The notes under the pieces were generated by a model. It did not search any database and was not told the origin of the DNA. It saw nothing but the letters and a program-made list of their open reading frames with translations. Source: Desulfobaccales bacterium (GTDB lineage: Bacteria > Desulfobacterota > Desulfobaccia > Desulfobaccales > 0-14-0-80-60-11). Taken from it: DNA of 41,838 nucleotides. The position numbers were made by a program, and so were the translations under genes. The DNA lies in the NCBI GenBank assembly GCA_030694005.1, contig JAUXZG010000104.1, positions 1 through 41,838 on the forward strand, read 5' to 3'. Positions 5,140 to 34,778 of this stretch are shown here, piece by piece (positions within the stretch are counted from its first letter, which is position 1; each line of letters starts with the position of its first letter).

Positions 5140-5190
5140 GCGGAGGGGACTAAGGGCCAGGGGGCCTTACCCCCCTCCCCCCAGCCTCCA
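5140..5190. repeat. Composite intergenic repeat, module A only
   Basis: ggcggaggggactaagggcc..gggggccttacccccctccccccag. Confidence 0.65.
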
Positions 5191-5194
5191 TATG

Positions 5195-5725
5195 CGCTAA
5201 CTTATGAGACAGCCTTCATCCCCCCTTTGTAAAAGGGGGGTCAGGGGGGATTTCCTTGCGCATTCGCTCCGCTATCTCCCGGTAGATGACTTCTACCACC
5301 GCCTCGGTTTCTTTTAAAACCTGTCGGCTGTTAAAACGAAGAACCGTCAAGCCAAGTCTGCATAAATAATTGTCCCGCTCTCTGTCCCTTTCAGCATGAT
5401 GGTCTTCAAGATGCTGCGAACCGTCAATCTCAACCACCAATTTTCCCTTTGGCGAATAGAAATCAACAATGTAATCACCAACCGGTTTCTGGCGGTAAAA
5501 TTGCACGCCCGAGATCTGTTTGCCCCGTAGCCGTGACCATAAGACACGCTCACTTTCGGTCAGGTTCTGTCGGAGTTGCCGTGCCCTGGGCTTCAGCCTG
5601 GCGTTATACTTGAGCATGGCTTTATTCTTAAAATCCCCCCTTACCCCCCTTTGTCAAAGGGGGGATTTAACCTTTGCCGCTAATCTATGATAACTTATTA
5701 TAATAGCACACTTTTTAAGTTAGCG
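5195..5725. mobile_element. Putative DUF559 nuclease cassette bounded by inverted C-rich palindromes and a short inverted repeat
   Basis: Left palindrome atcccccctttgtaaaaggggggtcaggggggattt (5218-5253); right inverted copy aaaatccccccttacccccctttgtcaaaggggggattt (~5630-5668); outer 10-bp inverted repeat cgctaactta (5195-5204) / taagttagcg (5716-5725); direct repeat cgctaacttatgaga (5195-5209) vs cgctaatctatgata (5678-5692), 12/15. Confidence 0.55.
5216..5617 (-). CDS. DUF559 (Vsr-like endonuclease fold) protein
   Basis: LRQNLTESERVLWSRLRGKQISGVQFYRQKPVGDYIVDFYSPKGKLVVEIDGSQH; C-terminus EIPPDPPFTKGG is encoded by the flanking palindrome. Confidence 0.9.
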   Translation of the reverse strand: MLKYNARLKPRARQLRQNLTESERVLWSRLRGKQISGVQFYRQKPVGDYIVDFYSPKGKLVVEIDGSQHLEDHHAERDRERDNYLCRLGLTVLRFNSRQVLKETEAVVEVIYREIAERMRKEIPPDPPFTKGG

Positions 5726-5730
5726 TTTGT

Positions 5731-5760
5731 GCCCAATCCCCCTCCCCCAATCCCCTAACT
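5731..5760. repeat. Partial arm of composite repeat module A
   Basis: cccaatccccctcccccaatcccctaac. Confidence 0.5.
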
Positions 5761-6048: not shown

Positions 6049-9000
6049 ATGGACGCGTCTTTGCGGATTCTGGCTTCCACGAACAACGCCCGTGGTGACT
6101 TGTTCACCCGACTGATAAAGGACTTGTTCTTCGCCCTGGGGTACGATGACCTCCGTTTGAACGTCCACAAAACAGGGCGGGAACTGGATATCCAGGGACA
6201 ACACCGGATTGAACCTCGCAGAGTCGTTGCAGAATGTAAAGCACACACCGCCAAAATGGGCGGTGACGAGCTTAACAAATTCCTTGGAGTCCTGACCCGA
6301 GAGCGGAAGAAAAACGCGCCCACTCCTGTCACCGGATACTTCGTGTCACTTAGCGGCTTCACAGAAACCGGCATCCAGCAGGAGGAAGAAACCGGGGATG
6401 ATCGAGTCATTCTCCTGAAAGCAGAACAAGTGATCAGCGAGTTGGAGCGGAGCCGTGTCCTGGTTGGACGCACTGTGGCCGCCGAACGTGCAGGCCAGTG
6501 CGCTCACCATGGTGGACTGACTGACGCCGTGCTGGAAGACGCCGAACTTCTTGGCCATGAACGTGGTTACCTTTGGGCAATTCATTATTCGCGAAATAAG
6601 GAACTAACCCACTTCGCGCTCATCCATGCGGACGGCACGCCCCTAGCGGAACCCGTGGCACGGGAAGTCATTGATGCTGACCGCCAATGCTCCGGTATTC
6701 TCCATTCTCTGCATTACCTCGCCCCGGCACCTCCTCCGCCCGAGCGGGCAAAGTTGGCAGCTGAGGCGATAACCCGCTATCGGCAATGGCTCGGCGAGGA
6801 ATGCGGCTTCATCCAACTCGATGGATTGCCTGCCGATACCGACCTGAGCGCAACCCGGATGAAATTGGAACGGCTTTTTGTGCCCTTGAAAGCGTACTAC
6901 CTGTCTGAACCCAAAGATGAAACGGATAAAGAAGCAGAGGGAGAGAATAAGGTTCTTCCGATTGGTGAAATGCTTTCAGAGAGCACACACCTTGCCCTGC
7001 TTGCCACCCCCGGAGGAGGAAAAAGCACCCTCCTCAAACGCCTTGCCATCGCCTACGCATTTCCCGAACGACGCGTCGAGGTTTCGGATGACTTGCCAGA
7101 CCGGAGTTGGCTCCCGCTCTTCCTGCGTTGCCGCGAGTTGAGGGACCGAGCATATCGCCCCATTCTGGAAATCCTCGACGACCTTCCGCGCCATGCTGGC
7201 ATGAATGAACTGGAGGCGGGCGCCTTCCGCGAGTCTGTGCACGAAATTCTTCGCGCCGGTCGAGCACTCCTTCTAGTTGACGGGTTAGACGAGATATCCG
7301 AGGAAGGCGCGCGGCAAGTGTTCGCGAACAATCTACGCACTTTTCTTGCGGTTTTTCCAAAAGCGGCGATAGTAGTTGCGTCACGCGAGGCAGGCTTCAG
7401 GTTGGTGGCCGGTGTAGTTGCCAGCGCTTGCGTCAGGGCGAAGCTGGCACCTTTTGACAAGCACGACGTTCAGCAACTCTGTGAGCGGTGGCATCTGCAG
7501 GTGGTTGGCGACAATGAGAAAGTGCGGACGGACGCCCGCGACCTTGCGCGTACAATATGGCAAAACGAACGAATCCGTACATTGGCCGAGAACCCACTTC
7601 TGTTGACAACGCTGCTGGTTATAAAACGCTGGATCGGGGAATTGCCGCGCAACCGCGCCGCCCTATATCGGGAAGCAGTCCGGGTGCTTATCCGAACATG
7701 GAATGTGGAAGGGTATGCTCCGCTAGATGAGGAGGAGACACTCGCACAACTCTCCTACGTCGCTTGTGCGATGATGGAGCAAGGCACCCAACGGATCGGC
7801 CAAAAAGCGTTGACAAGACTACTGCAGCAAGCACGTCAGGAATTGGAAGCAGAACTTCACTTCGTTGCGATCTCAGCCACGGGCTTCATCGAACGCATCG
7901 AGTATCGCAGCAGTTTGCTTATGCAGACCGGACACGACATTTTGGAGGGGGAGTTTCAGCCAGTCTACGAGTTCCGACACCTGACATTCCAAGAGTATTT
8001 GGCGGCGCGCGGCTACGTCGAGGAACAATACCCGGGGCGAGCCGAGGGTCAGGCTCTTCTTCATCTACTCGAACCCCATTTTGAGGATGAGCGGTGGCGT
8101 GAAGTGGTAGCGCTTTCGGCAGTGCTCGCGGGGCGCAGAGCGGAGCCGATTATGAAGCGATTGGCCGCGGTATGCGCGAATATTGAATGGCTCCAACGGG
8201 ACCCGAGGGAAAGCGGTAGACCGCAAGTTATCCTACTGAAACAATGCCTCCTCGACGAGGTGCAGGTCACGACCCCGACCCTGCGCGCCGCGTTGGAGCA
8301 GGTAGCGCGCCACGTCCGGGATGTGCCTATTGAGCCTATTAGGAAAAAGGGCACAGGAATGGAGCAAGAAAGCGCCCTCATCAGGCTACGGCGGGGGAAA
8401 TACGGAACACTTCTTCAGCAAGTGACTGAAGACTCCTACCTCAGCGGAAGGAAAAATTGGGAAGAGTATGAACTCGCCATTGCGGATCTCGCGTTTGAGG
8501 AGCAGTTCCAATCTTCCGCCAGGGTACAGATGTCGGCATCTGTGTCGCATTCATTGTTGAAAGCGATTGAAACAGGGGAGAGGATAGAAAAGGTTCGTGC
8601 GGCTTTGGTGGGCATGCGGTTGGCTTTCTCGGCTCGTCACCGAGATCCTAGGTCGGAACCCGCCAGACCTGATGAACTCTTCCAGCCACTACGTGATGCA
8701 ATTTGTGGGATGCTCAATCCTAATGACCCGCCTTTGGCTCTGGCAGCCTCTTGGGCATTGGCTTGGATTGGGGACACCAGACGGTGCACTGCCGCCATAG
8801 ACCTTGCCTCGATGTTGTGTCTATATCAAATATGGAAAGACTCGCCATGGCAAGAACTGTCTCGGTTCGCGGCCTGGGCATTTGCTGCCCAACCGCTTTT
8901 ACCTCGTGACACGTTCAGCAAAGATGTGTGGGGTTCTTGCGATGCGTTTCTAGAAAAAGCCTCAGGACATGAAAAGAGTAGGAAAGGACGTATATCACAA

Positions 9001-9210
9001 AGGGCCGCATTAGTGGTTGCATGGTACCGACAAGCACCTTGGAACGATGGAGATCTCGTTCGGGTAATTGCGGATGTAATAGAACCGGGTGATGCCGATT
9101 ATACCATGCGCGATCTCTTGGAGAACCTTGGCGACGCAGGAAGACAAGTACTGCAGAAATTGAGGGAGAAGAAAGACGAAGCGCACAAGAAACCTCGCAA
9201 GAGGCGATAA
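6049..9210 (+). CDS. NACHT-domain STAND NTPase with N-terminal Mrr-like PD-(D/E)xK nuclease domain; probable anti-phage protein
   Basis: N-terminus LFFALGYDDLRLNVHKTGRELDIQGQHRIEPRRVVAECKAH (D...ExK); Walker A ATPGGGKSTLLKR; Walker B RALLLVDGLDEISEEG; NACHT-type VYEFRHLTFQEYLAARGYVEE; C-terminal helical region. Confidence 0.85.
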   Translation: MDASLRILASTNNARGDLFTRLIKDLFFALGYDDLRLNVHKTGRELDIQGQHRIEPRRVVAECKAHTAKMGGDELNKFLGVLTRERKKNAPTPVTGYFVSLSGFTETGIQQEEETGDDRVILLKAEQVISELERSRVLVGRTVAAERAGQCAHHGGLTDAVLEDAELLGHERGYLWAIHYSRNKELTHFALIHADGTPLAEPVAREVIDADRQCSGILHSLHYLAPAPPPPERAKLAAEAITRYRQWLGEECGFIQLDGLPADTDLSATRMKLERLFVPLKAYYLSEPKDETDKEAEGENKVLPIGEMLSESTHLALLATPGGGKSTLLKRLAIAYAFPERRVEVSDDLPDRSWLPLFLRCRELRDRAYRPILEILDDLPRHAGMNELEAGAFRESVHEILRAGRALLLVDGLDEISEEGARQVFANNLRTFLAVFPKAAIVVASREAGFRLVAGVVASACVRAKLAPFDKHDVQQLCERWHLQVVGDNEKVRTDARDLARTIWQNERIRTLAENPLLLTTLLVIKRWIGELPRNRAALYREAVRVLIRTWNVEGYAPLDEEETLAQLSYVACAMMEQGTQRIGQKALTRLLQQARQELEAELHFVAISATGFIERIEYRSSLLMQTGHDILEGEFQPVYEFRHLTFQEYLAARGYVEEQYPGRAEGQALLHLLEPHFEDERWREVVALSAVLAGRRAEPIMKRLAAVCANIEWLQRDPRESGRPQVILLKQCLLDEVQVTTPTLRAALEQVARHVRDVPIEPIRKKGTGMEQESALIRLRRGKYGTLLQQVTEDSYLSGRKNWEEYELAIADLAFEEQFQSSARVQMSASVSHSLLKAIETGERIEKVRAALVGMRLAFSARHRDPRSEPARPDELFQPLRDAICGMLNPNDPPLALAASWALAWIGDTRRCTAAIDLASMLCLYQIWKDSPWQELSRFAAWAFAAQPLLPRDTFSKDVWGSCDAFLEKASGHEKSRKGRISQRAALVVAWYRQAPWNDGDLVRVIADVIEPGDADYTMRDLLENLGDAGRQVLQKLREKKDEAHKKPRKRR

Positions 9211-34581: not shown

Positions 34582-34778
34582 ACTATTACTTGGTTGCTAA
34601 AGTTAGCGTATTTTTATGGAAGGGGAAAATTCCCCCCTTTTCTAAAGGGGGGTAAGGGGGGGTTTTAAAATCCCCCTAAATCCCCCTTTAAGAAAGGGGG
34701 ACTTTAGGTTTGTCATTGAATTACCAGGTGCTTTTTAAATACGCTGACTTTTGCAACTAATTACTAATACTTGGTTGC
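34582..34778. mobile_element. MITE-like gene-less copy of the C-rich palindrome pair
   Basis: Core 34630-34704 ccccccttttctaaaggggggtaagggggggttttaaaatccccctaaatccccctttaagaaaggggg; TIR gttgctaaagttagcgtattt (34593-34613) vs inverted aaatacgctgacttttgcaac (34737-34757), 19/21; direct repeat actattacttggttgc (34582-34597) / actaatacttggttgc (34763-34778), 15/16. Confidence 0.65.

Follow-up and report, generated by a model that had tools for sequence, protein, structure and literature searches.

A Gene-Less MITE Enclosing an Inverted Pair of Triplex-Type Repeats, and a Candidate DUF559 Partner of Such Repeats, in a Desulfobaccales Bacterium

A short gene-less element at 34584-34766 of the window (the whole stretch of DNA analyzed here, 41,838 nucleotides of a Desulfobaccales contig) is probably a nested composite, in which a MITE encloses a REP-like pair that belongs to a DUF559 system and was spread by the DUF559 nuclease together with repair. 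The outer part is an ordinary MITE. From the inner part the trail leads to DUF559 genes and triplex-type REP units that are partnered subtype by subtype, an association for which no earlier report was found in the literature searched. We lean, with some reserve, toward regarding DUF559 as the missing mobility enzyme of triplex repeats and the nuclease counterpart of REPIN-RAYT, such that each lineage recognizes its own unit and the pair at 34632-34700 is the non-autonomous form.

Anatomy and Copies of the Composite Element

The element proper covers 34586-34764 (179 bp) and contains no gene. Its terminal inverted repeats (TIRs) are 28 bp long (34586-34613 and 34737-34764) and identical at 23 of 28 positions. 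The following features were identified:

34584-34766 (+): whole composite element including a TA at each end; the copies on contigs C126 and C58 align across this span and diverge beyond it
34586-34613 (+): left TIR, TTACTTGGTTGCTAAAGTTAGCGTATTT; agrees with the right end at 23 of 28 positions; six other elements of the genome have related ends
34632-34666 (+): triplex-type REP unit, L orientation; stem CCCCCCTTT/AAAGGGGGG, spacer TAA, mirror tail GGGGGGGTTTT (from sequence and DNA fold)
34671-34700 (-): triplex-type REP unit, R orientation; stem CCCCCTTT/AAAGGGGG, spacer ATTTA, tail GGGGGAT (from sequence and DNA fold)
34737-34764 (-): right TIR; agrees with the left end at 23 of 28 positions; related likewise to the ends of those six elements
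34767-34778 (+): isolated fragment of a further left terminus, ATACTTGGTTGC; matches the outer part of the left TIR and is absent beside the other copies

The first-pass annotation of this DNA had described a gene-less, MITE-like element with TIRs of 21 bp (19/21 matching); the description holds, and the TIRs are real, with only their length understated. A search of the region 34583-34778 against the whole genome returned a second copy at C126:4526-4699 (86% identity) and a third at C58:12032-12210 (77% identity). When the three copies are aligned with their flanks, conservation begins at CTA(G/T) on the left side and ends at (A/T)TA on the right; the sequences beyond are unrelated. Four more elements with the TIR pair, each about 120 bp long (on C161, C236, C138, and C18), hold a different C-rich unit, CCCTAACCCTCTCCCC..GGGGAGAGGG, in their interiors. 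There are thus several copies with shared borders at unrelated sites, three of the present type and four of the sibling type, as expected of a MITE. The C-rich core also stands alone, with no TIR, at many genomic positions (L005-L008), and the query region has at least 58 matches there. Because the TIRs occur with another core and the core occurs alone, the two are separable, one lying inside the other, and on this evidence the outer TIR-type MITE and the inner REP-like pair are two independent, nested elements.

The annotation also took a near-perfect 16-bp direct repeat flanking the element for a duplication. The left copy of that repeat (34583-34598) makes up the outer half of the left TIR, and this outer sequence, TACTTGGTTGC, begins other copies at unrelated sites with slight variation. 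The right copy is the 12-bp extra terminus fragment at 34767-34778, present at this site only. Since one copy belongs to the TIR and the other is a fragment beside a single element, a 16-bp target-site duplication is rejected. A duplication of TA (CTAG) is the better candidate: TA within CTAG-like sites would fit as the duplicated bases in five of the seven copies, although the copies are old.

Across the 395 phylum genomes searched, only the own genome contains the TIR, apart from two degenerate single matches elsewhere, and the repeat was absent from every relative searched. The own genome yielded no IS630-type transposase domain, and, at the sensitivity used, an autonomous source gene for the TIRs turned up neither there nor in the 395 phylum genomes.

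Inside the element, TTTTAAAA separates the left palindrome (34632-34666) from the right inverted palindrome (34671-34700). The L-R order is that seen around the DUF559 gene of the window (5220-5253 and 5632-5664), and on this point the sequence bears the earlier description out. The DNA fold of the 84-nt core (34625-34708) beats 200 of 200 shuffles (z -2.6). Inverted pairing of units, a hallmark of REPIN-RAYT systems, is found both at 34632-34700 and in the free copies. The halves of a pair (34632-34700, L005-L008) differ, one having the 5-base spacer ATTTA with G5 and the other a shorter spacer with G6, and so resemble distinct left and right ends. In E. coli, inverted pairs always join one unit of TTA type with one of CCG type (PMC4666352).

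Triplex-Motif Character of the Units

About three bases past each hairpin, a purine tail repeats the G-arm in mirror order, an A being matched by either A or T. The combination of stem arm and mirror tail is present in both units of the element, the L tail having one mismatch. Among 106 informative units beside DUF559 genes, 84% have perfect mirrors and 7.5% perfect direct repeats, and when tails are exchanged between units of different arms only 8% are mirrors. Examples of arm and tail are GGGGGAGGG/GGGTGGGGG, GGGAGGGGG/GGGGGAGGG, GGGGGAAGG/GGATGGGGG, and AAAGGGGGG/GGGGGGATT. Mirror symmetry of this kind is the signature of a purine-motif intrastrand triplex, into which one strand could fold, and by this signature the units are intrastrand-triplex motifs of the BoxC/PIT/TM class. 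The E. coli motif forms triplexes in vitro and occurs in inverted pairs, and no mobility gene was reported around its copies (Holder et al., 2015; PMC4666352). Triplex motifs have been tied to genome instability and rearrangement hot spots, and earlier work on triplex repeats includes Hoyne et al. (2000; cited in PMC4666352).

The DUF559 Cassette

A DUF559 gene near the left end of the window is flanked by the same kind of units:

5189-5207 (+): left end, degraded, of the IS231/IS4-like MITE (CATTGGCGCTAACTTAAG family) that surrounds the DUF559 cassette; sequence CATATGCGCTAACTTATGA
5216-5617 (-): DUF559 gene, 133 aa, candidate EDxHD-type endonuclease; PF04480, E=6.7e-36; AF2 pLDDT 88; Foldseek matches 3hrl and 3r3p
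5220-5253 (+): left REP unit of the cassette, overlapping the 3' end of the gene
5632-5664 (-): right REP unit of the cassette
5714-5731 (-): degraded right end of the IS231/IS4-like MITE, containing the 10-mer AAGTTAGCGT

What this gene shares with the MITE is only the core units, in the same L-R order. A large gene that adjoins the cassette (6049-9210) combines Mrr-type nuclease and NACHT domains and looks like a defense gene.

The 10-mer AAGTTAGCGT, which occurs in the left TIR and again at 5718-5727, had been offered as a further link between MITE and cassette. At 5718-5727 its orientation is opposite to that of the element ends: together with 5189-5207 it gives CGCTAACTT when read inward, an order reversed with respect to the MITE ends, and the pair matches the ends, CATTGGCGCTAACTTAAG, of an IS/MITE family that is abundant and unrelated. 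Because the 10-mer is the degraded end of this separate IS231-like element in opposite orientation, the TIRs are not those of DUF559, and the 10-mer was rejected as a link. The CATTGGCGCTAACTTAAG family was seen in the window (5189-5207, 5714-5731) and in the relatives G003, G008, and G013 (loci L257-L274 and L277-L291). It has more than 90 matches in G003, includes MITEs of 102 bp and 208 bp, and has a longer element that breaks contigs; its transposase was not recovered from these data. Its members insert into loops of C-rich REP hairpins and are bordered on both sides by about 11 repeated bases (CCC-N5-GGG), a pattern reminiscent of the targeting of IS231/IS4. The 208-bp MITEs themselves carry a REP unit pair, and in two copies (G003:C48:17067-17441 and C5:25190-25564; L266 and L268) an extra insert of about 160 bp, a younger nested element, splits one REP unit.

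To place the cassette in a broader context, DUF559 genes were collected from 40 relatives and 80 named genomes across many phyla, of which 112 genes had usable flanks. When upstream flanks were compared with downstream flanks, the best inverted match scored at least 34 in 70% of these genes and in 0.3% of 286 shifted windows; a high score at L182 came from a run of N and was discounted. In a search for a hairpin plus mirror tail of any sequence, triplex-type units lay on both sides of 56 of the 112 genes, on one side of 35, and on neither side of 21, against 0, 17, and 271 of 288 shifted windows. The 18 Y1_Tnp loci had no unit on either side, and a single IS630 locus out of 20 had one, on one side. 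All 35 DUF559 genes with usable flanks in the relatives of the window have at least one unit; the genes without a nearby unit, about a fifth of the sample, all lie outside these relatives. The link of C-rich cores to DUF559 across many phyla is well supported by these comparisons. The pairing of an autonomous with a non-autonomous form proposed in the first-pass annotation consequently divides: it fails for the TIRs and the direct repeat, and it stands for the C-rich core, whose association with DUF559 recurs across many phyla with matched subtypes. In the literature searched, mostly papers available without subscription, no link of DUF559 to REPs, palindromes, inverted repeats, or transposition was found.

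The DUF559 protein of the window is predicted to adopt a nuclease fold and resembles an EDxHD homing endonuclease. Its AF2 model (mean pLDDT 88) matches in Foldseek the gonococcal structure 3hrl (E=3.4e-7) and the catalytic domain of I-Bth0305I (3r3p, E=6e-4), to which the sequence profile also matches (E=1e-4). Invariant DUF559 residues, identified by conservation rather than by a residue-by-residue superposition on the I-Bth0305I active site, include E23, D52, E63, and H69, and D65 is nearly invariant in A4, so that the acidic and His residues typical of EDxHD/Vsr-like nucleases are present. The protein would act as a nuclease. A DUF559 gene has been placed in the EDxHD homing family (PMC9403480), and Caulobacter VsrA, a DUF559-type protein, has been proposed as a repair nuclease acting in mismatch repair (PMC12907096), so not every DUF559 protein need be a repeat mover.

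Subtype Matching and Copy Number

By their stems, the units fall into four types: CCCCCTTT..AAAGGGGG (A), CCCTCTCCC (B), CCCTCCCC (C), and CCTTCCCC (D). In 65 of 70 DUF559 loci the same type stands upstream and downstream. On a tree of 116 DUF559 proteins, unit type requires 8 changes against a mean of 31.1 for shuffled types, and none of 200 shuffles was as low, although the exact ratio of 8 to 31 should not be over-read because the tree is built on few columns, has many weak forks, and contains near-copies that cluster by descent. As the unit types are spread over phyla, clustering by host alone is unlikely to account for the pattern.

Copy number follows the gene as well. Relatives with a group A DUF559 gene each have at least 20-34 core matches, while among 30 relatives without one, 27 have 0-14 matches and three have 23, 32, and 44, these counts being lower bounds. 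The three genomes that hold many core copies with no group A DUF559 gene detected in them are G003, G010, and G027, and they count against the proposed role of DUF559.

Insertion Sites

An in-frame insertion of a DUF559 domain together with type B units interrupts a DUF1156 DNA methylase gene in two relatives (loci L069 and L090) and in G047 (L302). The DUF1156 homologues L301, L303, and L305, which come from other genera and allow the join to be compared at the protein level, read through without the cassette. The insertion is bounded by whole units and not by the two parts of one split unit. With the cassette present in this gene in three genomes and lacking in three, cassette and units appear to come and go together. 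Within the interrupted genes (L090:607-3315, L069, L302), the REPs are translated as peptides of PSPSGRG/PLPGGE type.

The E. coli K-12 DUF559 gene, ycjD, has a full BoxC about 150 bp past its 3' end, which is itself overlapped by a degenerate unit. The locus is variable, with at least 80% of the stretch held by 3334 of the 5395 E. coli genomes that gave a match; in the fabI-sapF interval (L340 compared with L341-L343), ycjD and BoxC are present in about 60% of genomes. Three ycjD-less strains carry a TetR/RND efflux operon in the place of ycjD. A clean empty site was rejected here, as the match on the fabI side stops at query base 164 and the efflux operon follows instead; the operon in the ycjD-less regions argues for replacement and not simple insertion.

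Proposed Mechanism and Alternatives

The outer layer is a 179-bp non-autonomous MITE, probably once moved by a DDE transposase that used TA/CTAG targets, and we hypothesize that an inverted REP-like pair settled inside it as the inner layer. A DUF559 gene between two units would constitute a small mobile cassette, with gene-less unit pairs as its non-autonomous form. The DUF559 nuclease, of EDxHD type, may recognize and bind its own unit subtype when this is extruded as a hairpin or triplex during replication. It would then nick or cut the extruded unit, and repair would paste copies or whole cassettes elsewhere. The data themselves show the anatomy, the copies, the association with DUF559, the subtype match, an in-frame insertion next to homologues without it, and the predicted nuclease fold, from which unit binding, cutting, and copying are inferred.

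That the MITE is the non-autonomous partner of the cassette, moved through its TIRs with a 16-bp target duplication, was suggested by the shared L-R order of palindromes and the shared 10-mer. This is very improbable, and TIR-based mobilization of the MITE by DUF559 can be regarded as already refuted: the supposed duplication belongs to the TIR in other copies, the 10-mer points the opposite way to the element ends and comes from another IS family, and the TIR is confined, two degenerate single matches aside, to one genome of 395, whereas DUF559 is widespread. Even less credible is the notion that selection maintains the C-rich units as ordinary transcription terminators. They are G/C-rich hairpins and mostly intergenic, but their mirror tails co-vary with the stem, they occur inside reading frames and as inverted dimers, and PIT elements were without terminator activity in work summarized in PMC4666352.

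Two further alternatives give DUF559 a passive role. REPs are classically the partners of RAYTs (PMC3733652), and Y1_Tnp domains are present in 30 of 40 genomes, with five such domains in the own genome, so the units might be moved by RAYT-type Y1 transposases encoded elsewhere while DUF559 merely sits at REP sites. We consider this improbable, since units stand beside none of the 18 Y1 loci, G004 and G023 have unit-flanked DUF559 genes and no Y1 match, and chance settlement would not be expected to let DUF559 subtype predict unit subtype. Alternatively, DUF559 could be a passenger resembling a homing endonuclease that lands on existing triplex repeats, which themselves multiply by replication slippage or recombination. 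The EDxHD homing-endonuclease fold and the role of triplex motifs as rearrangement hot spots (PMC4666352) fit this explanation, which we rate as unlikely, if somewhat less so than the RAYT explanation, because unit type follows the DUF559 tree, copy number goes with the presence of a matching DUF559 gene, and the DUF1156 insertion is bounded by whole units with no single unit split. The nested composite, with units spread by DUF559 and repair, is the reading we prefer.

Comparison With Known Systems

IS-derived MITEs with TA targets, such as Correia and RUP, are related to IS630. The outer element resembles them in its size class (120-180 bp), its TIRs of about 28 bp, and the TA at both ends, and differs in that no matching transposase was found, the own genome lacking any IS630-type domain. 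With EDxHD homing endonucleases (I-Bth0305I, PDB 3r3p), the DUF559 protein shares fold and profile similarity; unlike them, it is encoded outside introns and inteins and bounded by repeats, and its 133 residues leave out the long DNA-binding extension.

The units have the makeup of BoxC/PIT/TM elements, namely a C-arm, a G-arm, a 3-nt loop (TTA or CCG in E. coli), a mirror G-tail, many copies, and inverted pairs, and the E. coli unit CCCTCGCCCC..GGGGAGAGGG-TTA-GGGTGAGGGG is type B of the present typing. Whereas the E. coli copies were reported without a mobility gene nearby, here DUF559 stands beside the units in many phyla, and E. coli itself holds both parts, BoxC and ycjD. Triplex repeats of this class occur in hundreds of bacterial genomes, and a DUF559 partner would explain, in a way open to testing, both their spread and the function of DUF559.

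The closest parallel is REPIN-RAYT, with its dispersed inverted REP pairs, units that also flank a gene of one or few copies, and subtype matching between the two. The GTAG tag and unit-flanked Y1 gene of those systems do not recur: none of the 18 Y1 loci is flanked by units, there is no GTAG at the hairpin foot in the element, and units here generally lack the tag and carry a mirror tail instead. The gene, too, is a PD-(D/E)XK/EDxHD-like nuclease and not a Y1 HUH transposase, and DUF559 would join the RAYTs as a second class of enzyme with a possible role in moving REP-like DNA.
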